Under the pieces are notes generated by a model. That model made no database searches. It saw only the letters and a program-made list of their open reading frames with translations, and was not told where the DNA came from. From positions 102,800 to 166,799 of the forward strand of contig JAGNKX010000011.1 of assembly GCA_017999915.1 (NCBI GenBank): 64,000 nt of DNA. Reading direction: 5' to 3'. Numbering within the stretch: position 1 is the stretch's first letter; each line of letters starts with the position of its first letter. This document shows positions 6,941 to 57,140 of the stretch, in pieces. The position numbers were made by a program, and so were the translations under genes. The DNA comes from Spirochaetota bacterium (GTDB lineage Bacteria > Spirochaetota > UBA4802 > UBA5550).

Positions 6941-7290
6941 GGTAGTCGCACGGGGAAGTCGTGGCAGGTCTGCGTGGAAGTCCCATGGAAGCGGGAGAGC
7001 TACTGTATCACGATGGATGATCGATAGATGTATCGGCAGATGTACTGCTTTCTTTGGTTGCAGAAGGTGCAGAACCGATAATTGCAGGTAAAGGTAACAA
7101 ATTAAAGGACCCTGTTCATAGTATTTCCTTTTATCATGAAAAAATATAATACGGATAATACCGATTGTGTCGCCTTAACCGGACCCGATGTAGGAGCACA
7201 ATCTCGGATATTCACCGTAGAATAACACTTGCCTTATCCATCTATTCATGATATAAAGATGCAATCCAATCACATCGAGGGGGCATGGTC
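6941..7290. other. Intergenic region with no recognised feature
   Basis: About 350 bases without a convincing gene, RNA or strong hairpin. Only the last 15 bases matter: GAGGGGG at 7277-7283 serves the next gene. Confidence 0.5.
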
Positions 7291-39987: not shown

Positions 39988-41082
39988 TCATCCCGCCGGT
40001 GTGCCCGTCTTTATGACATGGATCGCCGTGGCCTTGAAGGACGCGGTGATCTCCTTCCCAGCGGCGATGCCCATTTCTTCCATGGAGCGGTTCGTGACAT
40101 AGGCCACCAGGGTGAAGCCGCAGTCGACGTAGACCTTATTGAAGAGACCCAGGGGCACGATCCTCGCCACCCTGCCGCGGAAGGAGTTGCGCGCGCTTGT
40201 CTCCAGGGGAGCCGATGAAAGCACGATATTGTCCGGGTGCACGCAGAAGGTGACGGCGCTCCCCCGCTCCGCCGCGCCGGCGGCCTCGATGGTCCTGTCC
40301 CGGACCGACACGGTGAACAATCCCTCCCCGGACCCGGTAACCTCACCGGCAAGGATGGTCTCGGTGCCCATGAAGGAGGCAACGAACTCGCTCGCCGGGT
40401 ACAGGGTGATCTCACCGGGGCTCCCGGCCTGGACGACGCTCCCGCCTTTCATCACGATGATACGGTCGGCCAGGCGTATCGCCTCGGCCCGGTCATGGGT
40501 GGCGAAGACGGTGGTGATCCCCCGCTCGCGGATTACACGGTCCAGGTCCGTGATGAGGGACTCCCGCGTGGGCGCGTCCAGGGAGGAAAAGGGCTCGTCC
40601 ATGAGGAGAATTGCCGGGTCCACCGCCAGGGCCCGGGCGATGCTTACCCGCTGGGCCTCCCCGCCCGACAGGGCCCGGGCCTTGCGCTTCGCCAGGGCGC
40701 CTATCCCCAGCATCTCCAGGTTCCGCTCCACTGTTTTCCGGATATCGCCGCGCTTCACTCCCCGCATCTTCAGACCCGACGCCACGTTGTCATAGACCGT
40801 CGCGGTGAAGAGGAGCGGCTCCTGGAAAACCATGGCCATGGCGCGGCGATAGCGAAGGACCGACGTTCCGGCGGTGATCTCCTCGCCGCGGTACCGGATG
40901 GTCCCGCGGTCGGGCCGCACCAATCTCATGAGGGAAAGAAGGAGAGTCGACTTGCCGGCGCCGTTGGGCCCGATGAGGGAATAGACACGGCCCTCCTCGA
41001 AGGCCAGGCTGTCGACCGCCAGCGCCGCCATGCCGTTCCTCAGGACCAGGAGGTCCCGCACCTCGATGACGGGGCCCTTCAT
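39988..41082 (-). CDS. tupC: Tungstate/molybdate ABC transporter ATPase
   Basis: A 364-residue ATP-binding subunit. Walker [10 protein letters not shown], signature [15 protein letters not shown], Walker [13 protein letters not shown] and the switch His in FATHD are all present in the N-terminal 230 residues. The C-terminal 110 residues form a TOBE-type oxyanion-sensing domain (from [14 protein letters not shown]), typical of molybdate/tungstate/sulfate ATPases. ATG 41082 overlaps the permease stop as ATGA; the frame runs open upstream to 41520 only as a shadow of tupB. It is the third gene of the tupABC operon. Confidence 0.9.
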
Positions 41083-41774
41083 CGCCCCCTCCCCTGCTGT
41101 ATCGCGGTGAGAATATAATTCACCGTGAAGGCCAGGAGCAGCAAGATCACCCCCAGCGCTATGGCGAGCTCGAAATTCCCCTTTCCCGTTTCCATGACCG
41201 TGGCGGTCGTGAGGACCCGCGTGTACCCCCTGATGTTTCCCCCCACCATCATGGAGGCGCCTATCTCCGAAATGACGCCGCCGAAACCGGCCATCACGGC
41301 GGTCAGCAGGGGAAGGCGCGACTCCTTCATGAGGAGCCACACCATCTGGCGCCGCGTGGCCCCCAGGGCGAGGATCTGGAGGCGGAGCTTCCCCGGCAGG
41401 CGCTGCATGGCGGCCAGGGTCACCCCGGTTATGATGGGCGCGGCGATGACGATCTGCGCGATCACCATGGCCGCCGGCGTGTACAGGAGGCCCAGCTCCC
41501 CCAGGGGGCCGCTCCGCCATATGAAGAGGGTGACAAAGAGGCCCACCACCACCGGGGGGAGACCCATGCCGGTGTTGACCACGCTAATGACAAAGCCCTT
41601 GCCCGGAAAGCGGAGAAGCGCAATGGCGGTGCCGACGCCCACGCCGATGACGGTGCTCGCCAGGGTGGCGGCCCCGGAGATCTTCAGCGACAGCACCGTG
41701 ACCGCCACGACCTCCGGATCAAGGGACACGATGAGCCTGAAGGCCTGGATGACGCCGTTAATGATGAGGTCCAT
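41079..41774 (-). CDS. tupB: Tungstate ABC transporter permease
   Basis: A 231-residue inner-membrane permease with about five or six helices. The TupB/WtpB family loop is visible as ALGATRRQMVWLLMKESRLPLLTAVMAGFGGVISEIGAS (E-A-A-like motif coupling to the ATPase). The start has the LSLKISGAATLASTVIGVGVGTAIAL block common to this group. It lies 3 bases after the tupA stop and overlaps tupC. TupB is distinguished from ModB by its VNTGMGLPPVVVGL segment. Confidence 0.9.
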   Translation of the reverse strand: MDLIINGVIQAFRLIVSLDPEVVAVTVLSLKISGAATLASTVIGVGVGTAIALLRFPGKGFVISVVNTGMGLPPVVVGLFVTLFIWRSGPLGELGLLYTPAAMVIAQIVIAAPIITGVTLAAMQRLPGKLRLQILALGATRRQMVWLLMKESRLPLLTAVMAGFGGVISEIGASMMVGGNIRGYTRVLTTATVMETGKGNFELAIALGVILLLLAFTVNYILTAIQQGRGR

Positions 41775-41777
41775 GAA

Positions 41778-42599
41778 TCACTTGACAGCGTCAGGATGAA
41801 AGAGTATCGCTCCGTACTTCCTTATCCCGAATTCTTTAATCATCCTCTGCGTTTCCGGCGCCACCCAGAAATCGGCGAAGGCCTTTCCCCCCTCCGCGTT
41901 GACCTTCGGGAACTTTTTCGGGTTCACCTCGATGACATGGTAGATGTTCAGCAGCGCCCTGTCTCCTTCCACCAGGACGACAACGTCGATCTTTTTCTTC
42001 CGGGAGAGGTAGGTGGCCCGGTCGCAGAGGGTGTAGCCCTTCTTCTCCACGACCACCGCCAGGGTCTGGCCCATGCCGAGGCCCGTCTGCTGGTACCATT
42101 TTTCTCTTTCCGGCTCAAGGCCGGCGTTCTTCCAGAGCTTCTGCTCCATCACGTGGGTCCCTGATTTATCCCCCCGGGACACAAAGAGGGACTTCGACGC
42201 GGCGATCTTTTTGAACGCCACCGCCGCCGATCCGAGGCCCCTGATCTTCGCCGGATCGTCCTTCGGTCCCAGGATCACGAAATCATTGTGCATGACGATG
42301 CGGCGGTTCACGCCGAATCCCCGCTTCATGAACTTCTCCTCGGCGTCCTTTGAGTGCGCCAGAAGCAGGTCCGCCTCGCCCCGCTCGCCCATGGCCAGGG
42401 CCTGGCCCGAGCCCACGGCTATGGTCTTCACCCGGTAGCCGCTCTTCTTCTCGAACACCGGGATGAGCTCGTCCAGGAGGCCCGTGTCCTGGGTGCTGGT
42501 GGTGGTGGCGAAGATGATGTCCTTCTGCTTCGCCTCTGACAGGCCGAAGCCCGACAGGCACGCGGCCATGAGCAGCATGACAAAAACCGTCTTTCTCAT
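41778..42599 (-). CDS. tupA: Periplasmic tungstate-binding protein
   Basis: A 273-residue binding protein with a signal peptide (about 1-23, SGFGLSEA). The mature part begins IIFATTTSTQDTGLLDELIPVF; the T-T-T-S motif binds the oxyanion in TupA/WtpA proteins. A further family block is SRGDKSGTHVMEQKLW, with Arg and Asp contacts, and the C-terminal part ends NPKKFPKVNAEGGKAFADFW. TupA prefers tungstate over molybdate in characterised members, but the choice here is inferred. CGGAGGGAAT precedes the ATG. A 12-bp palindrome (42617-42628) just upstream may be an operator. Confidence 0.92.
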   Translation of the reverse strand: MRKTVFVMLLMAACLSGFGLSEAKQKDIIFATTTSTQDTGLLDELIPVFEKKSGYRVKTIAVGSGQALAMGERGEADLLLAHSKDAEEKFMKRGFGVNRRIVMHNDFVILGPKDDPAKIRGLGSAAVAFKKIAASKSLFVSRGDKSGTHVMEQKLWKNAGLEPEREKWYQQTGLGMGQTLAVVVEKKGYTLCDRATYLSRKKKIDVVVLVEGDRALLNIYHVIEVNPKKFPKVNAEGGKAFADFWVAPETQRMIKEFGIRKYGAILFHPDAVK

Positions 42600-42910: not shown

Positions 42911-45475
42911 ATGCAAAAGATAAAGTTTGGACTACTATTATTGTCGCTGGCAGCTTTAATCGGTATTTCACCGGTCATGGCGCAGGAAAAGGCAGCGGAG
43001 AAACAGGATAAAAAAGTTGTACAGCAGGAGAAGAAGCCCGTTAAGCAGAATAAAAACGCCGACAAAAAGGAAGACAAGGAAATTGCCGGAAAAGAGGAAG
43101 GGCAGGCCCCTGAAGATAAAAAAGAAGTGGCCCCGAAAAGAACAAGCGGCTATTCAATAGGCGAGATCGTCATCAAGGAAAAGGCCCTCGCCAGCGTCGA
43201 GGACGCGGCCATCACCACCGTGCTTTCGGCTGAGGACCTGAAATCGCGCTCTGAAAAAACCCTGGACCAGGCGCTCCAGACCGTGCCCGGCATGATAGTG
43301 CGCCAGGGCCAGAAGGGGCAGATGAACTTTGACATGCGCGGATTCCAGCACAGTACCGTCGCCCTGCTCGTGGACGGCCTTCCTTTTGAGGAGGTCTATG
43401 ACGGCGGCGGCGGAGACATTTCCCGGATCAACGTCATGAACGCCTCGAAAATCGTCATCAACAGGGGAACGTCCTCCGCGCTGTACGGCTCCCGGGGCGC
43501 CTTCGGAGCCATCAATGTCATTTCCATAAAGCCTGAGCGCCTCTTCTTTAAAGGCTCCACCGAATTCGATCATTACGGAGGATTCACCGCCAACGCGGCG
43601 GGCGGCGGAACGTACAAGAATTTCTTCTTCACCCTTTCGGCGTCGGTGATGAAGAACAACAGTTATAACATATCCAGCCAACTGGGCCAGAACAAGCGCA
43701 TGCGCTGGCTCTATAACTTTGTCCCCTTCTATGTGTACGGGGCCACGTCCGCGGCCTATACGGCTGCGACAACCGCCCTGACGTCCATAGGCCTGGAATA
43801 TATCATGGATACCCAAAGATGGAACCATAATAACTCAATAAAGTATTACGCGTCGGGAAAGGCCGGGTATTCGATAACGGAAAACATCGAATTCGGCATA
43901 TCCACCGACTATTACGAGGGAAGCTCCAAATTCAACGGCTTTGAATTAAGCAGCTATTCAGCCTACAACCTGGACGGGACCTGGAGCGATCCCGCCGCCG
44001 GAAACATGGTCCAGAACCGCGCCTGGGAATGGACCAAGGACTACCGCCTCAATGTAGCCCCGTATCTCAAGCTTGATTTCGGCGATTTCGACATGAGGGC
44101 CATCTACTACTTCAACCAGCAGTCGAACGCCCTGACCGGATGGACCAACCAGGCCGAAACGGCGATGTTTGACGCCGGCAAGCTCTCCGAGCACAAGGAA
44201 ACAAGCCATGGCTTCTATGTATATCCTTCCTATAAGTTCGCGGAATGGAACAAGCTGAACGCCGTTGTGCATTACCGCCTCGATCTTTTTGAAAAATTCA
44301 AAAAGCGGATAGCGGCCTTTGCGCCCACCAGCGGCTTCATGAGCGTCCCCAATTACCCGACTCCCTGGTTTAAGACCGCCGAGGTGACCGCCAAATACGT
44401 TACCGTCGCCATCGAGGATGAATTCAAGTTCAATACCGACGGCGGAGACGTAAAATTCTCCCTCGGCATATCCTACGACGCGCAGATGCTGTCACGGAAC
44501 TTCGGCGGCAGGATGAACTATTTCACCGGTGTGCCGGCGGTGACGGGCTGGAAGGAGGACATCACCGGGATGCTCCGCCCGCGGCTGAAACCGCACCCCA
44601 CTTCCACGGTGTGGGGCACCGGGGACGGATTCAACCCGGTATTCTCGTTTGTGTACGAGCCGGTCAAGGAGATGCTGAAGCTGCGGGGAACCCTGTCGCA
44701 GAAGACGAAATTCCCCACCCTGCACCAGTACACGGACCTGGCCGACTACATAGACCGCTACGCGACCACGGCGGGGCAGGCCATATGGCTTCCGCTCATC
44801 TACAAGCTCAACGAGCTGAAGCCCGAGACATCCTACAACGGCAACGCCGGCTTCGAGCTGAACTTCTTTAAAAAAGCCCTGGAAATCAGGGGAGATTATT
44901 TCTACGCCTTTTACAGGAACAAGCTTGAATCCATACGGGACCCCAACTCCGCCGTCGGCAGGCAAAGCCGCTATGTCAACGTCAAGGGCCGGGAAGTCCA
45001 TGGCGCGGAAGGCTCCATCGGGACCACCCTCGGCACCGACAAGCTGAAGGTGGTGGAGCTGGGCGCCTCGGTGACCTACGTGTTCACCCATGCCCGGGAC
45101 TGGTTTGACAACCCCGTCGTCAAGGGAACGACCGTCGAAAGGACGCCCGCTCACCAGGTGATCATGCAGTTCAAGCTCGACTTCATCAGCGGAACCGGCA
45201 TCACCCTCTGGAGCAACAGCCTCTTCAACCAATCGCTCTATGTTCAGCAATTCCCGACTTCCATTCTGGGTGCAAGCTCCGTATACACGAACAAGGTGTA
45301 TACCACCAAGCTGCTCCATAATCCCACGATGCTGAACATCAGGGTATCCCAGCGTATCGTCGATCATTTCACCCTGTGGGTCATGTGCAAGAACGTCACC
45401 GACGACTACAACGCCGATCCCTTTAACCCCGGTCCGGGCAGGACCTGGTATTTCGGCGGCGACGCGGAGTTCTAA
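42911..45475 (+). CDS. TonB-dependent outer-membrane receptor (first copy)
   Basis: An 854-residue beta-barrel receptor that imports a ligand using TonB energy. Signal peptide 1-25, then an unusual Lys/Glu-rich linker (about 26-80), a TonB-box-like GEIVIKE (84-90), a plug domain (about 95-225) with SEKTLDQALQTVPGMIVRQG and SSALYGSRGAFGAINV, and a barrel ending in an aromatic residue (GGDAEF). GGAGG precedes the ATG. A strong terminator follows the stop at 45500-45530. It is divergent from tupABC and heads a group with CcsA, ResB and two unusual lipoproteins. A paralogue is at 54627-57140. The ligand is unknown; no TonB/ExbBD genes are in the window. Confidence 0.93.
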   Translation: MQKIKFGLLLLSLAALIGISPVMAQEKAAEKQDKKVVQQEKKPVKQNKNADKKEDKEIAGKEEGQAPEDKKEVAPKRTSGYSIGEIVIKEKALASVEDAAITTVLSAEDLKSRSEKTLDQALQTVPGMIVRQGQKGQMNFDMRGFQHSTVALLVDGLPFEEVYDGGGGDISRINVMNASKIVINRGTSSALYGSRGAFGAINVISIKPERLFFKGSTEFDHYGGFTANAAGGGTYKNFFFTLSASVMKNNSYNISSQLGQNKRMRWLYNFVPFYVYGATSAAYTAATTALTSIGLEYIMDTQRWNHNNSIKYYASGKAGYSITENIEFGISTDYYEGSSKFNGFELSSYSAYNLDGTWSDPAAGNMVQNRAWEWTKDYRLNVAPYLKLDFGDFDMRAIYYFNQQSNALTGWTNQAETAMFDAGKLSEHKETSHGFYVYPSYKFAEWNKLNAVVHYRLDLFEKFKKRIAAFAPTSGFMSVPNYPTPWFKTAEVTAKYVTVAIEDEFKFNTDGGDVKFSLGISYDAQMLSRNFGGRMNYFTGVPAVTGWKEDITGMLRPRLKPHPTSTVWGTGDGFNPVFSFVYEPVKEMLKLRGTLSQKTKFPTLHQYTDLADYIDRYATTAGQAIWLPLIYKLNELKPETSYNGNAGFELNFFKKALEIRGDYFYAFYRNKLESIRDPNSAVGRQSRYVNVKGREVHGAEGSIGTTLGTDKLKVVELGASVTYVFTHARDWFDNPVVKGTTVERTPAHQVIMQFKLDFISGTGITLWSNSLFNQSLYVQQFPTSILGASSVYTNKVYTTKLLHNPTMLNIRVSQRIVDHFTLWVMCKNVTDDYNADPFNPGPGRTWYFGGDAEF

Positions 45476-45557: not shown

Positions 45558-46619
45558 ATGAAACAGAACATTCTGGTTATCGCTTTATTGATCACGTGCT
45601 TCATCGTATCCGGCATCGGCTGCAGAAAAGACCTGTACCAGATCATGACCGTCACCGGCGCGACCCCCCTGGCACTGCAGGAATCGGCGCCATCGGGTCT
45701 CTCCCTTAAAATCTCCGGCCTGGTGAAAAAAGAATACGATCTGTCGTCATACACCCTGAACAAGTTCGCCACCACGCGGATCCGCACCAGGGAAATATCA
45801 TCAGCCGGTGAATTCGAGGGGACCTACGTGTATACCGGCATACCCCTGTACAACATCCTCGAAGGGGTCACCCCGCAGAAGCCGAAGAACGCCGCTTTCG
45901 ACCGGCCCCTGGACATCGCAGTGGTGTTCCACTCGAGCTCGGGGAAGAAGGCGCGCTTCAGCTACGGCGAGCTCATCATGACCGACGACCGCCATCCCTT
46001 CACCCTGGCCTTTCACCGCCGCCAGGTGCTCCCCAGCAAGGACCCGCAGAAATACACGAAGAACAAGTATAAGGAAAACATAAAAGGGCTGCGCCTCATC
46101 TGCCCCCGGGACCCGGACACGTCGCGGTACCTCGATGACGTGACCCAGATCAAGCTCGTTGTCCTGAGAACGCCCGACGACAAACTCCCGGTCATGAAGA
46201 AGGGCGCCAAATGCGAATCCACCGGCATCTCCTCCATTGACGGAGCCGCCGTGAAGGCCGTGACCTTCAACGGCGTCACGGAGCAGAAGACGGACCGGTG
46301 GGTGCGCGTGGGCCACGGCCAGGGATTCAAGGGCGTATCCTCCGCCGCCGGCTACGGCCTGCGGTCATTTCTCACAAAGAACTTCAGGGACTGCGGTCCC
46401 GACGATTTCTTTCTTTTCGTGGCCTGCGACGGCTACCGCGTGCTGATGTCGGGCCGGGAGATATTCCTTTCCGGCGACGGCGCCTCCTCCATGATCCTCA
46501 AGGAATTGGACGGCAAGAAGACCACCGGCACCTACATGCTGGCGCCGGTGGACGACTATTTCGTGGACCGCGACGTGTGGGGTCTCACCCACGTCGTCAT
46601 CATCAGGGACTTTAAGTAA
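45558..46619 (+). CDS. Lipoprotein with two sulfite-oxidase-fold domains
   Basis: A 353-residue periplasmic lipoprotein (SGIGC, Cys22). Residues about 47-200 resemble the molybdopterin-binding fold of sulfite oxidase (Oxidored_molyb): LKISGLVKKEYDLSSYTLNK, then GIPLYNILEGV and the final strand DDVTQIKLVVL. A second, more divergent copy (about 220-353) repeats the arrangement with VKAVTFNGVTEQKTDRWVRV and GLRSFL. The Cys that binds molybdenum in true sulfite oxidases is not found at the expected place, so it may be a binding module rather than an enzyme. It is 16 bases ahead of ccsA. The 169-residue protein at 52489 shares this fold. Confidence 0.65.
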   Translation: MKQNILVIALLITCFIVSGIGCRKDLYQIMTVTGATPLALQESAPSGLSLKISGLVKKEYDLSSYTLNKFATTRIRTREISSAGEFEGTYVYTGIPLYNILEGVTPQKPKNAAFDRPLDIAVVFHSSSGKKARFSYGELIMTDDRHPFTLAFHRRQVLPSKDPQKYTKNKYKENIKGLRLICPRDPDTSRYLDDVTQIKLVVLRTPDDKLPVMKKGAKCESTGISSIDGAAVKAVTFNGVTEQKTDRWVRVGHGQGFKGVSSAAGYGLRSFLTKNFRDCGPDDFFLFVACDGYRVLMSGREIFLSGDGASSMILKELDGKKTTGTYMLAPVDDYFVDRDVWGLTHVVIIRDFK

Positions 46620-46634: not shown

Positions 46635-47381
46635 ATGTTCACCACCAACAACCATGTCTATCTGTACGCCGCCGGCGGCATCTTCGCCGCGGCCGCCCTG
46701 CTCTATCTCCTCAGGAAGAGAACGGCCAGCCTCATCGTCCTGTGCGCCGGCTTCCTCCTGTATACGCTGTACCTCTTCGGCCGGGGCTGGATAGCCGGCA
46801 CCTTCCTTCCCAACCCGCTGGTTGAAGGACCCTTCCTGCTGCCCTGGTACCTGGCCGTGATCCTGATCATCATGGGTCTGAAAAAAAGCGAACGATGGGG
46901 GCTCGTTCTCATACCCCTGCTCCTGTCCGTCTGTTTCGCCGCGTGGTACGCCAAGGGAATAATTCCCCCCACGCCGAACAAGCTCACCCTCTGGGCGATC
47001 GCGTTTTTCACCGTTGAGATTTTCGGCCACGCCTGTTTCTATTGCGCGGCCTTATTTGCGGCAGCCCTGCTGGCGGGGAAGGAAAACACTGACACCTTTC
47101 ACGATTTGGCCGTCTGGGGCTTTCTTCTTTACTCGATCGCGCAGGTTATCGGGGCCGTATGGTGCTTCCTGGGCTGGGGCAACACCTTCCAGTGGGGACC
47201 CCGGCACATGAGCTCCACCGCTATCTGGCTCATCTACGCCTCATATATCCACCTGCGGTACATATCCGGATGGAACGTGAAGCGGCGGGCCTGGTTCGTC
47301 ATCCTGGCGTCGCTCATCGTCCTGGCCGTCACCAGCAGCTCATACCTGAACGAGAACAGCTTTCCCCGGATTGGAGGATGA
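46635..47381 (+). CDS. ccsA: CcsA/CcmC-type cytochrome c assembly protein
   Basis: A 248-residue inner-membrane protein with about eight hydrophobic segments. It carries the tryptophan-rich heme-handling signature as WCFLGWGNTFQWGPRH (176-191), a variant of the usual W-x-W-G-x-x-W-x-W-D-x-K-E, plus His132 and His206 (YIHLRY) as probable axial heme ligands. It is the CcsA half of a system II heme lyase that exports heme and joins it to CxxCH motifs. In true CcsA the motif is W-D-P-K-E; here D, K and E are replaced (WGPRH), so it may handle another tetrapyrrole. TGACATGG overlap-spacing with the resB gene shows coupling. Confidence 0.82.
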   Translation: MFTTNNHVYLYAAGGIFAAAALLYLLRKRTASLIVLCAGFLLYTLYLFGRGWIAGTFLPNPLVEGPFLLPWYLAVILIIMGLKKSERWGLVLIPLLLSVCFAAWYAKGIIPPTPNKLTLWAIAFFTVEIFGHACFYCAALFAAALLAGKENTDTFHDLAVWGFLLYSIAQVIGAVWCFLGWGNTFQWGPRHMSSTAIWLIYASYIHLRYISGWNVKRRAWFVILASLIVLAVTSSSYLNENSFPRIGG

Positions 47382-47382
47382 C

Positions 47383-48240
47383 ATGGTACAAAAAATATTG
47401 AACGCCATCGGAAATATCAGGCTGTCATTCTGGCTCCTTATGGCGGCGGCGGCGCTTTTTATCACGGGGATGTTTTACACCTCGATGGACTTCGCCTATT
47501 TTAAGACAATGAACGAGCTGCGGATCCAGGACTGGCTGGCACGGGAGCTTTCTTCCCGACCGGCCGTAAACTGGTGGCTGCCGGCGCTGATTACCGTGCT
47601 GGCGCTCCTGGGGCTGAACACCGTTGCCTGCACCTTTAACCGTCTGAGGGAGCTTGCAGCGGGCTCATCGGCAAAAGATTACCGCTTTGTCATTTCTCTC
47701 CTGCCGTCGATCGTGCACATGCTATTCATAGCGGTCATGATCGGCCACGCAATGACCATTACCATGGGGTCCTGGACCAGGATTCCCCTCTCCGAAGGCG
47801 CTGAAATCGTTATCAATCCCTCGGTCCCTCCCTTGACCGTACAACGGATCGCGGACGCATATTTCCCCGAGGGATCCCGCCTCTCGAAAAGGATCATGCA
47901 GACCAGGGTTACCCTTACAGGCGGAGATGGCGGCGATATATCAATTTCCTATCTCGAATCGGTGAGATACAAGGGCTACCGTCTTCACCTCGACATGGTG
48001 AAGCAGAAGCAGGGAAAAGCCCGTCTCAATCAGCCTGCGCAGATCGTGGAAAACAAGGAAACCTGCAACAGGTCGGAAACATTCAGGTCAAAGGAAAGGA
48101 AGCGGGAGCCGAGCCAGACGGTCCAGCTGCTGGTGATATCGGATCCGGGACTGCCGATCATCATCGCCGGCTTCACCCTCATCCTGGTCATCATGACATG
48201 GTACTTCATAGAGATTTTGAGAAAACGCAACGAAGCGTGA
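47383..48240 (+). CDS. resB: ResB-like cytochrome c biogenesis protein
   Basis: A 285-residue protein with transmembrane helices at about 15-35, 65-85, 105-125 and 260-280 and a periplasmic domain between the third and fourth. IRLSFWLLMAAAALFITGMFY and LNTVACTFNRL are ResB family features. It is shorter than most ResB (about 450). ATG 47383 follows GGAGG and starts 2 bases after the ccsA stop. With CcsA it forms the system II pair. The periplasmic domain contains a basic stretch (RSKERKREPSQT). The context argues for a dedicated role with the adjacent lipoproteins. Confidence 0.8.
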   Translation: MVQKILNAIGNIRLSFWLLMAAAALFITGMFYTSMDFAYFKTMNELRIQDWLARELSSRPAVNWWLPALITVLALLGLNTVACTFNRLRELAAGSSAKDYRFVISLLPSIVHMLFIAVMIGHAMTITMGSWTRIPLSEGAEIVINPSVPPLTVQRIADAYFPEGSRLSKRIMQTRVTLTGGDGGDISISYLESVRYKGYRLHLDMVKQKQGKARLNQPAQIVENKETCNRSETFRSKERKREPSQTVQLLVISDPGLPIIIAGFTLILVIMTWYFIEILRKRNEA

Positions 48241-48281
48241 AACCGGGTATAACCATATTTAATTAACACCGAGGAGCTATC

Positions 48282-49193
48282 ATGAAGCCCAAAGCGATCG
48301 TCTGCCTGGCCCTGTTGTTCATGGCCTTTCTTTCCTGTAAAAAACCGGGGCCGGGAAAATTCTACATTGTCGGCATGGGAACCGCCCCTGATCTTATCAG
48401 CGTACGGGCCGTCAATGTCATCAAAGACGCGGACATTGTCCTTGTTGAAAGCGACCGCGACAGGGAGTCATGGAAGGAATATCTCGGGGGAAAAGAGGTG
48501 TGGTACCGCACCGTCGGCCTCCGCATCATGTACGGCGCCGACCCATCAAAAATACGGGACCCGAAGCGCCGGGCCAGGGCTGAGCTCGGCATCAGGGCCA
48601 GGAAATCGCTTGTCGATCGCGTAACGGCCGCCGTCCGCGGCGGCAAGACGGTGGCGGACCTGCAAAGCGGCGACCCCATGGTATACGGCCTGACGTTCAT
48701 GCTCGAGATGCTTCCCGGGGACATAGCGACCGAGATCGTCCCCGGCATAGGCGCTTTCCAGGCGGCCAGCGCCGCGGTCAAGATGAGTCCCACCTTCGGA
48801 TACGACACCAGCGCGGTCATTCTGACCATGGATGACTGGAACGGCAGGGTCGACATGAATGAAAAACTCATGGCAGCCGGAAGCAGCCTTGTCGTGTACA
48901 CCATGCTCCTTGATTATCCCCGGTTTTTTACGCGGCTCAAGCGGTATTATCCCGAAGACACCCCGGTCGCCGTCGTGCAAAACGCCGGAGACCCGGACAC
49001 GCAGAAAGTGATCAGCAGCAGTGTCGGCAGATTCCTGAATGAAGTGGACTATAGGAACCTGCCGGCGGCGAGACACATCCTTCTCGTCGGTAAATTCCTC
49101 AAGGTGGGACAGATCCGCAAGGACCATGTGCCTGAGATCACGCCGGGGCATCCTCCGGTGACCATGGAGATTACCGGGCGCCGCCAAGAATGA
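48282..49193 (+). CDS. Lipoprotein with a tetrapyrrole-methylase fold
   Basis: A 303-residue protein with a lipoprotein signal (AFLSCKK, Cys19) directly followed by a CbiL/CobI-like tetrapyrrole methylase domain. Recognisable blocks are FYIVGMGTAPDLISVRAV (27-44; the usual G-x-G-x-G-D loop is altered), SGDPMVYG (129-136), EIVPGIGAFQAA (151-162), SLVVYTML (202-209) and TPVAVVQNAGDP. Members of this fold normally work in the cytoplasm with SAM; export would put it where SAM is absent. It is the last gene of the receptor-CcsA-ResB group and may be a tetrapyrrole-binding protein. The call of the fold is firm, the role is open. Confidence 0.8.
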   Translation: MKPKAIVCLALLFMAFLSCKKPGPGKFYIVGMGTAPDLISVRAVNVIKDADIVLVESDRDRESWKEYLGGKEVWYRTVGLRIMYGADPSKIRDPKRRARAELGIRARKSLVDRVTAAVRGGKTVADLQSGDPMVYGLTFMLEMLPGDIATEIVPGIGAFQAASAAVKMSPTFGYDTSAVILTMDDWNGRVDMNEKLMAAGSSLVVYTMLLDYPRFFTRLKRYYPEDTPVAVVQNAGDPDTQKVISSSVGRFLNEVDYRNLPAARHILLVGKFLKVGQIRKDHVPEITPGHPPVTMEITGRRQE

Positions 49194-49461
49194 AAAGGCG
49201 GCGTCCCGGGGATCATTCCCGTGATCGGATCGTTGCGATAATTTGTAATATTTTATGATATTTTTTCTTTGGGAATAATTTCGCGGTCTCCCATATCAAA
49301 AAAACAAAATATTACGAAAAGACACCGTTTTTCATCAATTTCCTTGACTCCAAAGACCCGGTTAAATACATTTCACTTTACCAGGTTGTTCTTCCTTCCG
49401 ATTTCTCTTAACCGGTATGTCCTGGTCATGATCCGGATAAACCCATTGATCGCGGTGCGTG

Positions 49462-50148
49462 ATGATTTACATAGGCATTGATGACACTGACACCCTGAAC
49501 TCCCGCGGCACGGGCCGCCTCGCCCGGAACATCGCCGCCGTCCTATCAACCGATTTTTCCGTTGAGGGCGTGGTGCGCCACCAGCTCCTCCAAGATCCGC
49601 GCGTGCCCTTCACCAGCCATAACAGCAGCGCCACCATCATCCTTCGCGAAAAAAAGAGGGTTGATATAGTCGGGATCTTCGATATGGTAAAGGCCCTGAT
49701 GCTCTCCGATTTCCAGGTCGGCAGCGATCCCGGGCTCTGCGTGACCCGCGACATACCCGTCCAGGTGATTGAGCACGGCCGCAACGCGCAGACGCGGCTG
49801 GTCACCCAGGATGAAGCCCGGGACCTGGCCCGGTCCCACGGCATGGCCCTGGAGGGCCTGGGAGGAACCCAGGACGGCGTCATCGGCGCCCTGGCGTCCG
49901 TGGGGCTCACCGCAACGGGCGACGACGGCCGCTACCTCCTCTGCGGCAGGGTGCGCGACCTGGCGGGCCTGGTCCCGGCGGAAGCGGTCCTCGACGCGGG
50001 CGTGGCGGAGATACGCACCCTGGAAGAGGAAGCCGTCACCTCCGGCATGGTCCTTGCCGACAAGATCAGGCCCGCGCGCCGCGGCGGCAGGCCCATCGCC
50101 TATGTTGAATGGCGCGACGGCCGCTGGGAGCCCCTGAAGCTGAATTAA
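49462..50148 (+). CDS. TiaS-like protein of unknown function
   Basis: A 228-residue soluble protein. The start IYIGIDDTDTLNSRGTGRLAR matches the N-terminal kinase-like domain of archaeal TiaS, which uses ATP to modify tRNA-Ile2; the acidic I-D-D-T-D motif binds metal and phosphate there. The second half has AEVRT-like EIRTLEEEAVTSGMVLADKIRPARRGG and a WRDGRWEPL end. Archaeal TiaS is about 420 residues with a zinc ribbon and OB domain; both are missing here. ATG 49462 is used, with an in-frame GTG just ahead. A repeat separates it from the ECF transporter genes, which run the same way. Confidence 0.6.
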   Translation: MIYIGIDDTDTLNSRGTGRLARNIAAVLSTDFSVEGVVRHQLLQDPRVPFTSHNSSATIILREKKRVDIVGIFDMVKALMLSDFQVGSDPGLCVTRDIPVQVIEHGRNAQTRLVTQDEARDLARSHGMALEGLGGTQDGVIGALASVGLTATGDDGRYLLCGRVRDLAGLVPAEAVLDAGVAEIRTLEEEAVTSGMVLADKIRPARRGGRPIAYVEWRDGRWEPLKLN

Positions 50149-50329: not shown

Positions 50330-51754
50330 ATGATACAGATACACGAACTGACATACGCATATCCCCAGCACGGCAGGGGAATCGGGCCCTTTGATTTTTC
50401 AGTGAAGGAAGGGGAGATGCTCCACCTGACCGGCTCCTCCGGGTGCGGCAAGAGCACCCTGGCCCGCTGTATCACGGGCCTCATCCCCCACATCTATCAC
50501 GGCGCCATGAAGGGGAGCGTTTGCGTCGGCGGCCTCGACACGGCCGCCACGCCCCTCTGGAAGCTCGCCGGGACTGCCGGGTTCGTGTTCCAGAACCCCT
50601 CCATGCAGATGCTGGGCAATACCGTGGAGGAGGAGATCCTCATCGGCCTGGAAAACCTGGGCCTCGGACGCGCTGAGATCCGGGACCGCATGGAGGAAGC
50701 CCTGGGGCGCTTCGGCCTCGGGGGATTCCGCCGGAGAAACCCCCATACACTCTCCGGCGGGGAACAGCAGAAGCTGGCCCTGGCCGCCATCATGGCCCGC
50801 CGTCCGCCGGTGCTGGTGCTGGACGAGCCCCTTTCGATGCTCGATGTCACGGCCGCGACGGAGCTGGTCCGCCACCTCTCGGAGCTGACCCGCGCCGGCG
50901 TCACCATCGTCATCTTCGAGCACCGTTCGGATTACCTCGCCGCCATGCCGGGCTTGAGGGTGGCTGCATTGGACGAAATTACCGTCCCCGGCCGCGCCGC
51001 CGCGCCGGGGAAATGGCCCGGGGCCGCGCCGGCCCCGGGTACCCGCCATGGCTGGCCGCTGCAGGCAGCCGGCCTCGGCGTAAGAATAGGCGGGAAGGAT
51101 ATCCTCAGGGATCTTGACCTTGCGATCGAGCCCGGGGAGGTGACGGCCGTCGTCGGCAGGAACGGCTGCGGGAAGACCACCCTGGTGCGGGCCCTCGCCG
51201 GGCTCCAGAAGCACGACGGCGCGGTCTCCATCGGCGGCGGGCGCCCCGATCTCGGCCAGGTCTACCAGAACGCAGACCTCCAGCTCTTCAACGCCTCGGT
51301 CCGGGCCGAGATCCTCTACCGCGTCAAGGATCCTGACATGGCCTGGTATGCCTGGCTCATGGAGACCCTCCGCCTCGGGACGTACGAGGAAACGCCGCCG
51401 CTGATACTGAGCGAGGGAGAGAAAAAGCGCGTGGCCCTGGCAACGGTGCTGATGCGCAAGGCGGCCCACGGCATCCTCCTCGACGAGCCGTCCCTGGGAC
51501 AGGACACGGCCCACAAGATGATGCTGATCGACATCTGCCGCGGCCTCGCGGCCGGCGGCAGGATAGTCCTCTTCACCACCCACGAGCTGCACCTGGCGGC
51601 CATGGCGGACCGCCTGATCCTCCTCGGCCCGGAAGGGATCGCCGCCGACGGGCCGCCGAAAAAGGTTTTCCTCGACGCCGCCGCATGGGAGCGGGCCGGC
51701 ATGTTCGTGCCGGCCTGGGCGGCCGACACGGGCCGGGAGGGCATAACGGCATGA
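50330..51754 (+). CDS. ECF-transporter fused double ATPase
   Basis: A 474-residue protein with two ABC ATPase domains in one chain, equal to EcfA-EcfA'. Domain 1 has Walker A GSSGCGKST (35-43), FQNPSMQM, LSGGEQQKLALA and VLVLDEPLSMLD. Domain 2 has GRNGCGKTT, VYQNADLQLF, LSEGEKKRVALA and GILLDEPSLGQD with TTHE. It drives uptake of a vitamin or metal through the energy-coupling factor module. The next gene overlaps its stop (ATGA). The linker between the two is Ala/Pro/Gly-rich. Confidence 0.92.
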   Translation: MIQIHELTYAYPQHGRGIGPFDFSVKEGEMLHLTGSSGCGKSTLARCITGLIPHIYHGAMKGSVCVGGLDTAATPLWKLAGTAGFVFQNPSMQMLGNTVEEEILIGLENLGLGRAEIRDRMEEALGRFGLGGFRRRNPHTLSGGEQQKLALAAIMARRPPVLVLDEPLSMLDVTAATELVRHLSELTRAGVTIVIFEHRSDYLAAMPGLRVAALDEITVPGRAAAPGKWPGAAPAPGTRHGWPLQAAGLGVRIGGKDILRDLDLAIEPGEVTAVVGRNGCGKTTLVRALAGLQKHDGAVSIGGGRPDLGQVYQNADLQLFNASVRAEILYRVKDPDMAWYAWLMETLRLGTYEETPPLILSEGEKKRVALATVLMRKAAHGILLDEPSLGQDTAHKMMLIDICRGLAAGGRIVLFTTHELHLAAMADRLILLGPEGIAADGPPKKVFLDAAAWERAGMFVPAWAADTGREGITA

Positions 51755-52485
51755 TGAAGATACTGAAATATTTTTCCTATGGAACGGCCGTCGCCGCCCT
51801 GTCGGAACAATCGCCCCTGCGGAGCGTCGACCCGCGCACCAAGCTCGCCCTCTGCCTGTGCGCCTCCCTGGCGGTGATGCTCCCCCTCGAAAAGCTGCTG
51901 GTTTTCACTTCGGTATATGTACTGTTCCTGTTGTGGGCCCGGCTCCTCCCTGAAGCGGCCCGCCAGGCGTGGAAGCTCAAGTGGATACTGGGGGTACTCT
52001 TCCTGGTGGACTGGCTGGCGGTCTCCCTCGACCTCGCGGTCGTGGTGACACTCAGGCTCCTCCTGATGGCCGGGGTCTTCGCCATGTTCTTTTCCACCAC
52101 CACGCCGTCGGAGCTCTGCATGGCGCTGGTGTGGATGCGCGTGCCGTACCGGTACGCCTTCAGCGTAAGCCTCTCCTTCCAGGCCGTGGGCGGCATCGAC
52201 GCGGAATGGCGCGCCATCCTGGAGGCCCAGAGGGCCCGGGGCGCCTTTACCGCGCCGCGCGGGTGGCGTTACCTGTTCGAGCAGGTCCGCAACCTGGTCT
52301 GCCTCACCGTGCCGGCGGTGGTTCTCACGGCCCGGCGCGCCTGGTCCATGACCGAGGCCGCCTACGCCCGCGGCTTCGAATCGCCGGGCCGGAGCCCATA
52401 CCGGAGACTCTCCACCGGGCCGATGGACTGGGCCATCCTGGCCGGGGCCCTGGCCCTGGCAGCCATATTTATCCTCTGGAGGTGA
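51751..52485 (+). CDS. ECF-transporter transmembrane subunit EcfT (CbiQ-like)
   Basis: A 244-residue inner-membrane protein with about five helices. RSVDPRTKLALCLCASLAVM is the usual EcfT opening, and two Ala-x-x-A-R-G-like coupling helices are visible: EAQRARGAF and EAAYARGFE. These contact the two ATPase domains. ATG 51751 overlaps the ATPase stop; a second ATG follows at 51754. It is 3 bases ahead of the next gene. It belongs to the CbiQ/EcfT family. Confidence 0.9.
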   Translation: MMKILKYFSYGTAVAALSEQSPLRSVDPRTKLALCLCASLAVMLPLEKLLVFTSVYVLFLLWARLLPEAARQAWKLKWILGVLFLVDWLAVSLDLAVVVTLRLLLMAGVFAMFFSTTTPSELCMALVWMRVPYRYAFSVSLSFQAVGGIDAEWRAILEAQRARGAFTAPRGWRYLFEQVRNLVCLTVPAVVLTARRAWSMTEAAYARGFESPGRSPYRRLSTGPMDWAILAGALALAAIFILWR

Positions 52486-52488
52486 CAA

Positions 52489-52998
52489 ATGAGCACCACG
52501 CGCCGCATCATCATCGCCGTCGTCATTATAGCGGTTGTAACGGGGGCCATCCTGGCCATAGAGTCCACCCGCAGGGGGGGATTTCTCTACCGCTCCCGCG
52601 ACAAGGGCCAGAAGGAGTATTCGGAAGGGTGCGTTCCGGTCTCCTCCGGCGGGAAGGTCATAGGGAGCTTCTGCCGGAAAGAATCGGCGGGCCTCGGGAA
52701 AACAAGTTTCCGCGACGGCGCGGAGAACAAGCTCCAGGAGGGATGGCTCCTCGGGGATGTTCTGAAGTTGTATGTTAAAAAAGAAGAAATATCCATGGAT
52801 ACCATCGTGCGCGTCGAGAGCACGGCCCGGGGCAAGAAAGCCGAGGTGTCGTGGAGAGATATTTCGGACAGGCGGAACAACATCATCCTGGCCCTGTCGA
52901 AGCAGGGAAACCTGAAGCTGGTTTCCACGATGAAGGGCCTTGACACCAGGGAGCGATGGGTGCAGGACGTTGACAGGATAGAGGTGCTCCGGCGGTGA
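52489..52998 (+). CDS. Membrane-anchored sulfite-oxidase-fold protein of an ECF operon
   Basis: A 169-residue protein with one N-terminal helix (about 7-24) and a periplasmic domain. That domain resembles the first domain of the lipoprotein at 45558: GWLLGDVLKLYV matches GIPLYNILEGV, ARGKKAEVSWRDI matches SSGKKARFSYGEL, and VQDVDRIEVLR matches LDDVTQIKLVVLR. No molybdenum-binding Cys is seen. GGAGG precedes the ATG and the end overlaps the S-component start (GTGA). Being inside an ECF operon, it is likely to hand a ligand to the S component; this is inferred. Confidence 0.6.
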   Translation: MSTTRRIIIAVVIIAVVTGAILAIESTRRGGFLYRSRDKGQKEYSEGCVPVSSGGKVIGSFCRKESAGLGKTSFRDGAENKLQEGWLLGDVLKLYVKKEEISMDTIVRVESTARGKKAEVSWRDISDRRNNIILALSKQGNLKLVSTMKGLDTRERWVQDVDRIEVLRR

Positions 52999-53540
52999 CG
53001 GAACGCTATTTTTCCACCTTCCAGCTCTTTCTCCTGGCCCTCTTCGCGGCCCTCATCGTGGTGGCCAAAATCGCCCTGCACCTGCCGCTGCAGCTTTCGG
53101 GCCACTCGGGGATATTCTGGATGGCCATCATCATCGTCGCGGCCCGGGTGGTGCCGAAGCGGGGCGCAGCGAGCCTGGTGGGCCTCACGTCGGGGATCAT
53201 GGCCGCCTTCCTCGGGATGGGAGACCTGGGGGGGCTCAACACCCTCCTCTCCTACGCCATGGCCGGCGTCGGCGCCGACCTGGGGCTCCTCCTCCTGCGC
53301 GACCCGGAGAACTTCGCCTGCGCCACCCTGGCCGGCGTGTTCGGGCACCTGTGCAAGTTCATGGTCAAGTGGATCTTCGGCATGGTAGCAGGGGCGCCTG
53401 TTGGTTTTATAGCCCTGGGCCTGGCCAAGGCCCTGGTCGGCTACATCGTCTTCGGCGCATTGGGGGGCCTCCTCGGCGCCCTCACCCTCAGGGCCCTCCG
53501 GAAGGCCGGGTTCTTCACGTACCTGCTGGAAAAGAAGTAG
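52995..53540 (+). CDS. ECF-transporter substrate-binding (S) component
   Basis: A 181-residue integral membrane protein with about six helices, the normal size for an S component. Start GTG at 52995 overlaps the previous stop. The helices carry FLLALFAALIVVAKIAL, a Gly/Ala-rich third helix, and a C-terminal pair rich in Gly (GALGGLLGAL). S components bind the vitamin or metal ligand, but the family here is not identifiable by eye. Its last 50 bases are partly repeated at about 53809-53857 beyond the TonB remnant. Confidence 0.75.
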   Translation: MTERYFSTFQLFLLALFAALIVVAKIALHLPLQLSGHSGIFWMAIIIVAARVVPKRGAASLVGLTSGIMAAFLGMGDLGGLNTLLSYAMAGVGADLGLLLLRDPENFACATLAGVFGHLCKFMVKWIFGMVAGAPVGFIALGLAKALVGYIVFGALGGLLGALTLRALRKAGFFTYLLEKK

Positions 53541-53541: not shown

Positions 53542-53808
53542 TTACAGCTTCGCCTCGAACCCTCCGTAGCAGAGGAACCCGGGCCCCGGATTGAAGGGGT
53601 CAGGGTTGTAGTCGTCGAGGATGTTCTTGAAAAGAACATAGAGGGTGAAACGCTTCCATATCTCCTGGGACACCTTCACGTTCAGGTTGAACTGGTTGTG
53701 GAGCTTCACCGTGTCGAAGAAATTACGCGAATAGAAGTAGGTGGTCCCCGAGGGCGGCGCATACCTCATGGCTTACGCGACCTGGTCGTTCAGCGCCGTG
53801 CCCCAGAG
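53542..53808 (-). pseudogene. C-terminal remnant of a third TonB-dependent receptor
   Basis: The minus strand encodes about 85 residues that match the end of the receptor at 54627: LWGTALNDQVA, a TAA stop, then AMRYAPPSG, FFDTVKLHNQFNLNVKVSQ, FKNILDDYNPDPFNPGPG and CYGGFEAKL. A stop codon inside the match and loss of the first 90 percent show it is dead. It lies on the opposite strand to the intact receptor and 2 bases past the S-component stop. Confidence 0.85.
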
Positions 53809-53997: not shown

Positions 53998-54552
53998 ATG
54001 AAAAAGAAACTGTTGGTTTTTGTGATGCTGCTAATGATTACGCCTATCTTCAGCTGCGATGAGGAAAAAGCTAATAAAAATGAAACAAATCTTACGAACT
54101 TATTATTTTTACTAGGGAACAAGACGCTGACGGTTAATGTGACGTATACAGGTACTTATGTTGCAAGTACTGGCACACAATACATATATGCATATCTTTA
54201 CAATGTTTGACCCACATATACCAGATCTCCAGTTTGCGTATATTCAGGAAGAACATCTGGCCCTGTAACTGATGGTACGCAACAAACTATAACCATTACA
54301 GGCATATGGTCGGGTGATTATTACCTTATGGTGTTCTATGACTACAAGAGCGGGGATAATGCTGACAATAAAGGCGATTTCTATACATTATATGATACAA
54401 CTGCCGATGGCACTTATTGCATATCTCAAGCGACAACAGTGAGTATACCAACTGTTTCATCCGTTACAATAACATTCAACGACACCTATGATTTTCCTAC
54501 GGGCGCCGGCACCGGCGCAGGTGCTATGTTTGATTCTACCAGTTGCCCGTAA
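53998..54552 (+). pseudogene. Small lipoprotein gene interrupted by one in-frame TGA
   Basis: The frame runs from ATG 53998 to TAA 54552 (184 residues) with a single TGA at 54208-54210. The N terminus is a lipoprotein signal (TPIFSC, Cys20). Before the TGA: VTYTGTYVASTGTQYIYAYL. After it the same frame goes on with PTYTRSPVCVYSG, then GIWSGDYYLMVFYDYKSGD and DGTYCISQATT, a beta-sandwich-like protein with good composition. Both halves look selected, so a recent nonsense mutation is likeliest; UGA decoding as selenocysteine is a remote alternative. It has a strong ribosome site and lies just upstream of the second TonB receptor, perhaps as its surface lipoprotein partner. Confidence 0.7.
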
Positions 54553-54615: not shown

Positions 54616-54630
54616 ATGCTGTTACAATGA
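54616..54630 (+). other. Four-codon upstream frame coupled to the TonB receptor start
   Basis: AGGGAG (54601-54606) sits 9 bases ahead of ATG 54616, which encodes MLLQ and stops at TGA 54628-54630. That stop overlaps the ATG of the receptor at 54627. This would place the best ribosome site on a mini-frame rather than on the receptor. Confidence 0.4.
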
Positions 54631-57140
54631 GGTATATTGAGAATACTTCCTGTCAAGTTATTTGGCAAGGAATAGATAAAAATGATATGATAATAATTTT
54701 ATTAAAGAAAAATTATCACGTTCTATCATTTATAACAATTACAATCGCATTAGTATTTTTTCCTCTTTTATCCCGCGGAATCGAAGCACAGGTACTGGGA
54801 AACAATAATAATATTACCGGCGGATTCGGCAAATCGAGCGCCACGAAGAAAGCAGGGGATCCATTTCAACGCAAGAAAAAGCATAGTGGTGTCTTTTCAG
54901 CCGGGGAAATCATAGTCTCCGGAAAAGCGATAGCCAATATCAATGCCGCGGCCATCACCACGACAATAAACCAGGAGGACATACGGGACCGGAGCGAAAA
55001 GACCCTTGACGATTCACTGGAGACCGTGCCCGGCGTGGCCATCGAACGCCATACCAAGGGACACGTGCGCGCGAAGATACGCGGATTCGACCAGGACAAG
55101 ATCGCGGTCCTGGTAGACGGCATCCCCGTGATCGACATCTATTCAACCGATGTGGACCTTTCAGATATACCGGTCATGAACGTGTCCCGCATCTACGTGA
55201 ACCGGGGCGTGTCCTCCGCCCTTTACGGCACCGGTGGCGCGGTCGGCTCCATCAACGTGGTGACCAGGAAGCCGACGCGTCTTTTCGCGGAGGCGAACGG
55301 CGAATATGGGCAATATAAAAACGGGTCAGCCAGCTTCGCCCATGGCGCTCCCTTCGGAAAGTTCTACTACTGGATTACCGGCTCTTTCCACAACTCCGGC
55401 GGATACAGACCTTCTGCGAAACTCGACCGCGCGAAAAAGATAAGCTGGTACACTAAATTCATCAAGCCTTACCTGTACAACTTCACCTACGACCAGGTAA
55501 CCATGCCCGCCCAGTACAGCTACCTGTTCGACGACGGAAAGTGGAACCATAACGAGTACCGCAAATACAACCTGGCGGCCAAGATCGGGTACGAGTTCAG
55601 CAATCACGTGGACGTCGGCGTTGCAGCCCTGTTCCGCTATGGATCGGCAAAAACCAACACCTACGAGAACAACTGCTTCAGCGACTACAAGCTCCAGAAC
55701 CTCTGGTGGAAGGACCCATTGTTCCAGGTTCCCACCCAGGGTGACGTCAAGAAAGCGGCCCTCAGGAACCGATCCTTCGTGTGGCCGAAGAAATACCGGT
55801 ACACCGTGTACCCCTACATCACCATTGACTATGACCGGCTCCTCATCAGGGCCAATGTGTTTGTCTCCTACGACTACGCGTCGCAGTTAGGATACGCTGA
55901 CAACTGGCATTTCTATGAAAAGGACGCCCCTGCCGCGAGGCCCAATGATGGACGATACTGCCCCGTTTATGATTACGAAACCTACATGTCCTATGGCGTG
56001 AATGTCTACCCCTCCTACCGTATCACGGAATGGAACCGCCTGAACATGGCCGTTACCTGGCGCGAGGACCGCTTCACCTCCCGGCAGAAGGCCAAGTCCC
56101 TGATCGAGTCATGGCCCGTCATTACCGCCGGATTCGGCCTCGACAAATACACGGTATCATATCTCAAGGCTTCGTTCCTCACCGTGGCCATCGAGGACGA
56201 GGTCAACATCAAGGATCGCCTGCGCCTCTCCGCAGGCATATCATACGACGCGCAAAATTTCACAAAATTCAAATCACGCAACAAAGATTACCCGGATTTT
56301 TACGGCCCGGCCTATATCGTGCGCGACAAATCCACCATCTGGGGAACACGCGACTCCTTCAATCCCGTGGCCGGCATCGTCATCACGGCCGTTCCAGACC
56401 TGCTCGACATAAAGATCGCCGGCTCCATGAAAACGCGTTTTCCCACACTCGGGGAGTATGACAAGGTCATCGCCTCGTTGTACGACCGCGGCCTGAAGCC
56501 GGAGCGATCGTACAACGGCAACGCCGGGTACCAGTTCTATTTCCTGGATAGAAGCCTGAGTTTCGGCGCGGACTACTTCATCAGCCTGGTGAGGAACCGC
56601 ATCGAGAAGATTGCGGGCTCCGATGAGCCGCCGGTTAACATAGAAAAAATCGTCTCCCAGGGCGCGGAAGCCTACGTTACCTTCGAGAAGAAAAACATAT
56701 CGATTTTCAAAAAGATAAACGCCTCATTCTATTATACGTATCTCAACTGCGTGAACATGGACGATTCATGGAACGCAAAAGTCAACAAGGGGCCCCATCT
56801 TGAACTGACTCCCGAGCATCAAATTGTCGCCGATCTGCGGCTACTGTTTAAAAGTGATACTATGCTGGCATTATGGGGAAACGCCAAATTCAACCAGATC
56901 ATGTATGCCATGCGTGTCCGCCCGGCGCCGGATGTACAATTCGCCGCATTTTCACGCAGCTTTTTCGAGCCGGTAAAGCTACATAATCCGTTCATGCTGA
57001 ATGTAAAAATTTCACAAAAAATATATAAATATATTACGGTATATATTCTCTGCAAAAACATTCTGGATGATTATTTCGCCGATCCCTTCAACCCAGGGCC
57101 GGGACGGATGTTCTATGGCGGTATAAATCTTAAATATTAA
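54627..57140 (+). CDS. TonB-dependent outer-membrane receptor (second copy)
   Basis: An 837-residue receptor, a paralogue of the one at 42911. After a signal segment (about 31-54) comes a Lys-rich linker, the TonB-box-like GEIIVSG (93-99), a plug with SEKTLDDSLETVPGVAIERH and SSALYGTGGAVGSINVV, and a barrel ending in INLKY. The start is uncertain: ATG 54627 is coupled to the stop of a 4-codon frame (ATG 54616), and ATG 54687 gives a more usual signal peptide. The N-terminal 150 bases are AT-rich, unlike the rest. The ligand is unknown. Confidence 0.9.
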   Translation: MRYIENTSCQVIWQGIDKNDMIIILLKKNYHVLSFITITIALVFFPLLSRGIEAQVLGNNNNITGGFGKSSATKKAGDPFQRKKKHSGVFSAGEIIVSGKAIANINAAAITTTINQEDIRDRSEKTLDDSLETVPGVAIERHTKGHVRAKIRGFDQDKIAVLVDGIPVIDIYSTDVDLSDIPVMNVSRIYVNRGVSSALYGTGGAVGSINVVTRKPTRLFAEANGEYGQYKNGSASFAHGAPFGKFYYWITGSFHNSGGYRPSAKLDRAKKISWYTKFIKPYLYNFTYDQVTMPAQYSYLFDDGKWNHNEYRKYNLAAKIGYEFSNHVDVGVAALFRYGSAKTNTYENNCFSDYKLQNLWWKDPLFQVPTQGDVKKAALRNRSFVWPKKYRYTVYPYITIDYDRLLIRANVFVSYDYASQLGYADNWHFYEKDAPAARPNDGRYCPVYDYETYMSYGVNVYPSYRITEWNRLNMAVTWREDRFTSRQKAKSLIESWPVITAGFGLDKYTVSYLKASFLTVAIEDEVNIKDRLRLSAGISYDAQNFTKFKSRNKDYPDFYGPAYIVRDKSTIWGTRDSFNPVAGIVITAVPDLLDIKIAGSMKTRFPTLGEYDKVIASLYDRGLKPERSYNGNAGYQFYFLDRSLSFGADYFISLVRNRIEKIAGSDEPPVNIEKIVSQGAEAYVTFEKKNISIFKKINASFYYTYLNCVNMDDSWNAKVNKGPHLELTPEHQIVADLRLLFKSDTMLALWGNAKFNQIMYAMRVRPAPDVQFAAFSRSFFEPVKLHNPFMLNVKISQKIYKYITVYILCKNILDDYFADPFNPGPGRMFYGGINLKY

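Follow-up and report, generated by a model that had tools for sequence, protein, structure and literature searches.

A lipoprotein of tetrapyrrole methylase fold at a putative tungsten acquisition locus of a Spirochaetota bacterium

Introduction

Proteins of the tetrapyrrole methylase family (Pfam TP_methylase, PF00590) include CobM/CbiF, the (cobalt-)precorrin-4 C11-methyltransferase, the fold of which is shared by CbiL/CobI, the precorrin-2 C20-methyltransferase. In CobM, the SAM contacts comprise the GAGPGD proline, the aspartate of GDP, and Ser112, which follows PG (PMC6478909), and the corresponding contacts in NirE are P27, D105, T133, and A134 (PMC4731766). Nickel uptake by NikKLMQO systems has been described without any exported TP_methylase (PMC545781, PMC2667541), and PruR is known as an exported protein that keeps the SUOX fold, binds pterins without a Mo-ligating cysteine, and acts in c-di-GMP signalling with DcpA (PMC13259868). 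Among the Tup and Wtp systems in the literature searched, none was found with a TonB receptor, SUOX-like lipoprotein, or TP_methylase. The reuse of a tetrapyrrole-pathway fold outside the membrane has a likeness in exported chelatase-fold proteins, namely the periplasmic CbiK of Desulfovibrio and IhtB of Porphyromonas, which act on haem or cobalt-sirohydrochlorin, although their fold differs from that considered here. The open-access literature searched held nothing relevant on exported or metal-linked TP_methylases.

In the present study, a 64,000-nucleotide stretch of a Spirochaetota contig (hereafter the window, to which all coordinates refer unless a locus is named) was analyzed around a gene that encodes an exported protein of TP_methylase fold (exTPM). 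The known tungstate transporters recur here, TupABC in the window and WtpABC in the exTPM operon of a related locus (L004), and a second clade of exported proteins shares with NikKLMQO systems the context of NikR, a NikL-like protein, DUF4198, and CbiM.

Results

The open reading frame at 48282-49193 (+), encoding 303 amino acids, was confirmed to carry a TP_methylase domain directly after the lipobox FLSC, as a preliminary description had it. The ribosome binding site GAGGAG (48271-48276, +) supports the ATG at 48282 as the start, and the N-terminus reads MKPKAIVCLALLFMAFLSC-KK, where MKPKAIVCLALLFMAFLSC is a signal peptide (48282-48338, +) ending in the lipobox-type FLSC with Cys19. The mean hydropathy of its h-region was 3.06, and a PS51257-like lipobox pattern matched the stretch LALLFMAFLSC up to Cys19, so that signal peptide, lipobox, and cysteine were all found. 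A start downstream of the signal had been named as the alternative; it fails, since the fold's first strand starts at residue 26, leaving no space for a start codon 3' of the signal. An n-h-c signal was recognized in all 25 relatives inspected from two phyla (best-11-residue mean hydropathy 2.2 to 3.4, basic n-region), in some as a plain signal peptide rather than the lipoprotein type, whereas cytoplasmic TP_methylases from the same genomes begin at the first strand, with a signal peptide in none of these controls. Moreover, purifying selection acts on exTPM (dN about 0.22, with third positions close to saturation), which, together with homologues 66-71% identical in two phyla, argues against a chance reading frame. 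On these sequence features, exTPM is an exported lipoprotein.

The Pfam domain PF00590 spans residues 26-248 of exTPM (E 7.1e-35; 121 bits, cut-off 27.8). The best NCBIfam match was CobM/CbiF (TIGR01465; E 4e-25), which scored 88.5 bits where the equivalog cut-off is 259.65, and CbiL (TIGR01467) gave 57.3 bits against 163.25, so that both scores fell far short of the curated cut-offs. An AlphaFold2 model built from 25 relatives (mean pLDDT 84.3) was aligned best by VIA-align to CobM (3ndc; Z 21.6, rmsd 2.4 A over 228 residues), followed by CbiF (1cbf; Z 21.1) and CbiL (2qbu; Z 19.1), and Foldseek agreed. The two-domain fold is thus shared with CobM/CbiF over some 228 residues, at Z 21-22, an rmsd of 2.4-2.8 A, and 22-25% identity, with the GDP loop kept. 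Of the CbiL/CobI-like domain proposed earlier, the TP_methylase assignment stands, but the closest enzyme is CbiF/CobM, which scores higher in both NCBIfam and structure, and CbiL, a weaker match of the same fold, was not upheld as the nearest relative. Unlike CobM/CbiF, exTPM is predicted to be exported, stands outside the cobalamin pathway, and has a changed SAM loop in the clade of the window; unlike CbiL/CobI, it combines export with an absence of pathway genes nearby.

Both conserved blocks reported earlier, SGDPMVYG (residues 129-136; 48666-48689, +) and EIVPGIGAFQAA, are present in exTPM, and the GDP of the former (G130 D131 P132) is invariant in 25/25 exported relatives. In alignment A2, GMGTAPD (residues 31-37; 48372-48392, +) replaces GxGPGD, so that the GxGxGD loop is changed and shorter by one residue, and in PGIG (residues 154-157; 48741-48752, +) Gly replaces the Ser/Thr of PG[IV][ST]. 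When the CobM and NirE contacts were placed on the family by our own reading of the alignment, the window's clade was seen to lack both the GAGPGD proline and the Ser/Thr that follows PG[I/V] (Gly instead) and to retain the GDP aspartate. The nickel and FmdE clades, however, retain GxGPGD and PG[IL]S, and the fusion proteins described below have GxG[C/S]GD. The altered loop noticed in the first reading therefore belongs to the window's subclade, where two contact side chains are gone, but two other exported clades keep the loop residues, and an argument from loss of SAM is not general. SAM-loop degeneration is, as far as these alignments go, specific to the window's clade rather than a defining trait of the exported family. 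We infer a binding role without methylation for exTPM of this clade, and catalysis is possible in the exported clades that retain the SAM-loop residues.

A genome scan revealed relatives about 70% identical to exTPM in two Spirochaetes genomes and in one genome labelled Acidobacteria. Relatives were then sought in three sets of genomes, mostly metagenome assemblies: 46 from the same order, 393 from the phylum, and 396 from the second phylum. Exported copies were found in 12 Spirochaetes genomes, all of the same order, and in seven of the second phylum, with up to four copies each, and they separated cleanly from cytoplasmic TP_methylases (E below 1e-56 versus 1e-31 or worse). In the maximum-likelihood tree, the exported proteins lie on one side of a branch and form two well supported groups. 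The branch itself is weakly supported (76/36), so a single origin of all exported TP_methylases was not upheld and two origins are possible. Plasmid relatives were only ordinary cytoplasmic Cob/Cbi enzymes (25-30% identity), a plasmid search with an exTPM fusion gave no match, and viral contigs gave no exTPM match.

The operon in the window begins with a TonB-dependent receptor gene (42911-45475, +; PF07715 Plug, E 2.7e-20), followed directly by the gene of a SUOX-fold lipoprotein (45558-46619, +), those of a CcsB-like membrane protein (46635-47381, +; PF01578, 8e-8; TIGR03144, 5.5e-16, below cut-off) and an overlapping ResB-like membrane protein (47371-48240, +; PF05140, 0.033 only), and exTPM. 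Divergent from the receptor gene are genes for the tungstate-binding protein TupA (41778-42599, -; NF041772, E 3.7e-72), the tungstate permease TupB (41079-41774, -; NF041773, E 5.8e-46), and a tungstate/molybdate ABC ATPase with a TOBE domain (39988-41520, -; NF040840, E 9.6e-90; PF03459); the listed frame of the ATPase overlaps TupB, its real start probably being downstream of the overlap. Further along lie a second receptor of this TonB type (54627-57140, +; 38% identical over 790 aa to that of L044) and an HTH_17-PBP_like regulator of molybdopterin type (57240-58145, +; PF12727, E 1.8e-55), whose NF011068 match (E 4.6e-59) is to the PBP part of molybdopterin biosynthesis proteins. With a TonB receptor, a tungsten/molybdenum (W/Mo) transporter, and a regulator found together, the window appears to be a tungsten locus that collects tungsten. 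An ECF-type transporter cassette (A-A', T, small secreted protein, S; 50330-53540, +) forms a separate unit after a 265 bp gap, and its membership in the exTPM system is uncertain; its S component is of PF09819 type, and the cassette may be an extra import route. The small secreted protein (52489-52998) had no family match, and a SUOX-like domain was rejected for it (hhalign probability 4.6%). Other features of this region are a gene 5' of the cassette (49459-50148) that resembles a TiaS domain and methanogenesis marker protein 11 (E 2e-12) in a bacterial host, an antisense fragment (53542-53808) corresponding to the C-terminus of a further TonB receptor of this type, and an apparently broken small lipoprotein gene (53998-54552) akin to a trio adjoining the TonB gene at 4706-7216 of locus L005.

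The lipoprotein at 45558-46619 is a homologue of the N-terminal half of exTPM fusions (25-29% identity in alignment A3) and contains two SUOX/PruR-like (Oxidored_molyb-like) domains. Foldseek matched its AlphaFold2 model (pLDDT 84.2) to sulfite dehydrogenase (5e-8), YedY (1e-6), and PruR (4e-5), identifying a SUOX fold. No cysteine is invariant across the family in A3, which may be a further likeness to PruR, but some are kept among the stand-alone lipoproteins. PruR and this protein share the fold and export, and differ in that the latter has a doubled domain, is lipidated, and is encoded in a tungsten-uptake operon. In nine exTPM relatives of about 580-640 aa, the signal peptide is separated from the TP_methylase domain by a double SUOX-like module, which was scored by Pfam as Oxidored_molyb in the three tested (E 1e-10 to 3e-4) and indicates a functional tie between module and exTPM. 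Many of these fusions also contain a CxxCH haem-c motif.

At three related loci (L043, L044, and L045), a Moco/Tuco riboswitch (RF01055) precedes the TonB gene at the exTPM locus, with scores of 59.4, 69.4, and 47.6 bits against a gathering threshold of 36. Stem P3 is missing in the elements of L044 and L043, the two alignments examined, and forms lacking P3 have been linked to tungsten-cofactor users (PMC2408646). Of the order's 29 RF01055 elements, six lie ahead of this TonB type; formate dehydrogenase, AOR-type, and hydrogenase-linked genes (names read by eye) follow the rest of those inspected. The TonB gene of the window has no upstream riboswitch even at a relaxed threshold, and its genus has no RF01055, so that control there must differ, perhaps via the HTH-PBP regulator. 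No B12 riboswitch was detected in any exTPM locus scanned, and the organism's genome has only two other TP_methylases, from which B12 is probably not made de novo; on both counts, cobalamin uptake or biosynthesis was rejected as the context.

Genes for W/Mo uptake or sensing (TupA, WtpABC, ModA, Mop, HTH-PBP, or RF01055) adjoin 17 of the 30 exported copies located, as judged from fetched neighbourhoods; the probability is below 1e-9 if such a marker adjoins a random gene in 5-10% of cases, and less extreme when kinship is considered. At least five arrangements were found: divergent Tup in the window; WtpABC-exTPM on one strand in an operon (L004; WtpA, E 3e-120); a ModA/WtpC-exTPM operon (L100); an exTPM fusion accompanied by genes for Mop/HTH-PBP/TupA (L041-L046 and L109; Mop TIGR00638, 6e-24); and TupA-FmdE-exTPM (L102 and L104-L108). 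In L106-L108, an FmdE domain and a TupA-like tungstate-binding protein are fused in one exported frame adjoining the exported TP_methylase. Three copies have a nickel/cobalt setting, TonB-exTPM-DUF4198, and two of these have a gene for NikR, CbiM, or a NikL-like protein close by. In two genomes, NikR-like operators lie about 40 bp upstream of the nickel-type operon (GTGTTAC-N13-GTAGCAC in L039), judged by the consensus of PMC545781. The TonB receptor of one nickel-type locus (L038, 10614-12863) matched the receptors that NCBIfam classes as FCYXU motif-type (E 1e-186, short of the cut-off). That family takes its name from a motif with selenocysteine, and no FCY motif was seen in this receptor. 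No metal marker was seen in the sequence fetched around the remaining 10 copies, of which five are on contigs under 7 kb.

Furthermore, a ResB-like gene was present in 10/10 genomes with tungsten-type (type A) exTPM versus 9/36 others (Fisher 2e-5, kinship ignored). The cluster at 5078-11774 of L148 (genome G023) has a riboswitch-controlled TonB gene, a SUOX-like lipoprotein, Mop, and TupA without CcsB/ResB or exTPM, and judging by its gene content it is likely the minimal core of the system. As such TonB-SUOX systems exist, exTPM is not essential to uptake, and in view of this core and of the ResB-like gene in 10/10 genomes, it is best seen as an accessory acting alongside the CcsB/ResB-like pair and the SUOX-like module on the cargo of the TonB receptor.

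Discussion

Taken together, sequence, predicted structure, and gene neighbourhood suggest that the TP_methylase fold has probably been put to new use in exTPM, as a lipoprotein outside the cytoplasm with an accessory role in TonB-dependent acquisition of tungsten, and probably also of molybdenum. The export signal, fold, operon, fusion, and tungsten or nickel context are shown at the level of sequence, and from the binding of an imported metal complex by exTPM onward the periplasmic steps are our reading of them. A W/Mo complex would be imported by the TonB receptor under W/Mo-cofactor control; the SUOX/PruR-like lipoprotein and exTPM would together bind or dismantle it in the periplasm, with exTPM employing the cleft where its cytoplasmic relatives accommodate SAM together with a metal tetrapyrrole. 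The CcsB/ResB-like membrane pair may assist, possibly by electron transfer, given the haem-c motif in many fusions. TupA would then capture the freed oxyanion for import by TupBC, and the related exTPM clade would do an equivalent job for nickel/cobalt.

Most likely, the ligand of exTPM is such a W/Mo complex; a tetrapyrrole is possible and is not favoured by the context. The preliminary description had suggested a periplasmic tetrapyrrole-binding protein, which might carry haem, sirohydrochlorin, or a corrinoid from the TonB receptor or the CcsB/ResB-like pair. Such a role would suit a fold and cleft like those of metal-tetrapyrrole enzymes, the CcsB/ResB-like neighbours (related to haem-handling factors and thus a possible pointer to haem), the haem-c motif, TonB receptors that score weakly to haem and B12 receptors, and a genome that probably makes no B12 de novo. 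However, CcsB/ResB-like proteins excepted, no neighbour has a part in corrin or porphyrin synthesis, export, or breakdown; the regulators and transporters at the locus and in relatives are mostly of W/Mo type, with nickel in three; every locus scanned is devoid of a B12 riboswitch; and we know of no biological tetrapyrrole of tungsten or molybdenum. The suggestion thus fares poorly against the gene context, and we consider it unlikely.

The system might instead salvage the finished W/Mo-pterin cofactor, which would enter through the TonB receptor under a cofactor-sensing riboswitch and be held by the PruR-like lipoprotein (pterin) and the exTPM cleft (nucleotide or metal part), with the nickel clade acting likewise on a nickel cofactor or chelate. 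To our knowledge, no bacterial uptake system for metal-pterin cofactors is known, and this version is put forward as a rather doubtful one.

It is also quite improbable that exported exTPM still binds SAM, SAH, or another nucleoside as a periplasmic enzyme or sensor. The GDP loop invariant throughout the relatives and the motifs retained in the nickel and FmdE clades speak for it, but the Pro and Ser/Thr contacts (PMC6478909, PMC4731766) are lost in the window's clade. Moreover, a supply of SAM to the periplasm is not known to us.

There is little to recommend a passenger gene, that is, a decaying paralogue without a role in metal loci: the patchy presence of exTPM and the uptake core of L148 would agree with it, but purifying selection, its recurrent and independent positioning next to W/Mo genes in five arrangements, and fusion with the SUOX module do not. 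Finally, that exTPM is a normal cytoplasmic tetrapyrrole methyltransferase whose start was misread, in favour of which the high-confidence fold match could be cited, is scarcely credible given the good ribosome binding site at the signal-including ATG with no start codon between signal and strand 1, the signal kept in all relatives, even in fusions with an N-terminal SUOX-like CxxCH module, and the equivalog cut-offs missed by far.

For annotation, databases will label exTPMs as precorrin methyltransferases, which would mislead predictions of the B12 pathway. The accessory role preferred here would bear on TonB-dependent, tungsten-cofactor-regulated uptake across the outer membrane, which is indicated by these loci and of which the open-access literature searched holds no report. 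Both the supply of tungsten and molybdenum to Gram-negative bacteria at trace levels and the salvage of environmental metal cofactors can now be tested with named proteins. In summary, the fold of a cofactor-biosynthesis enzyme appears to have been exported and recruited to trace-metal acquisition repeatedly in two phyla, with separate W/Mo and nickel clades.
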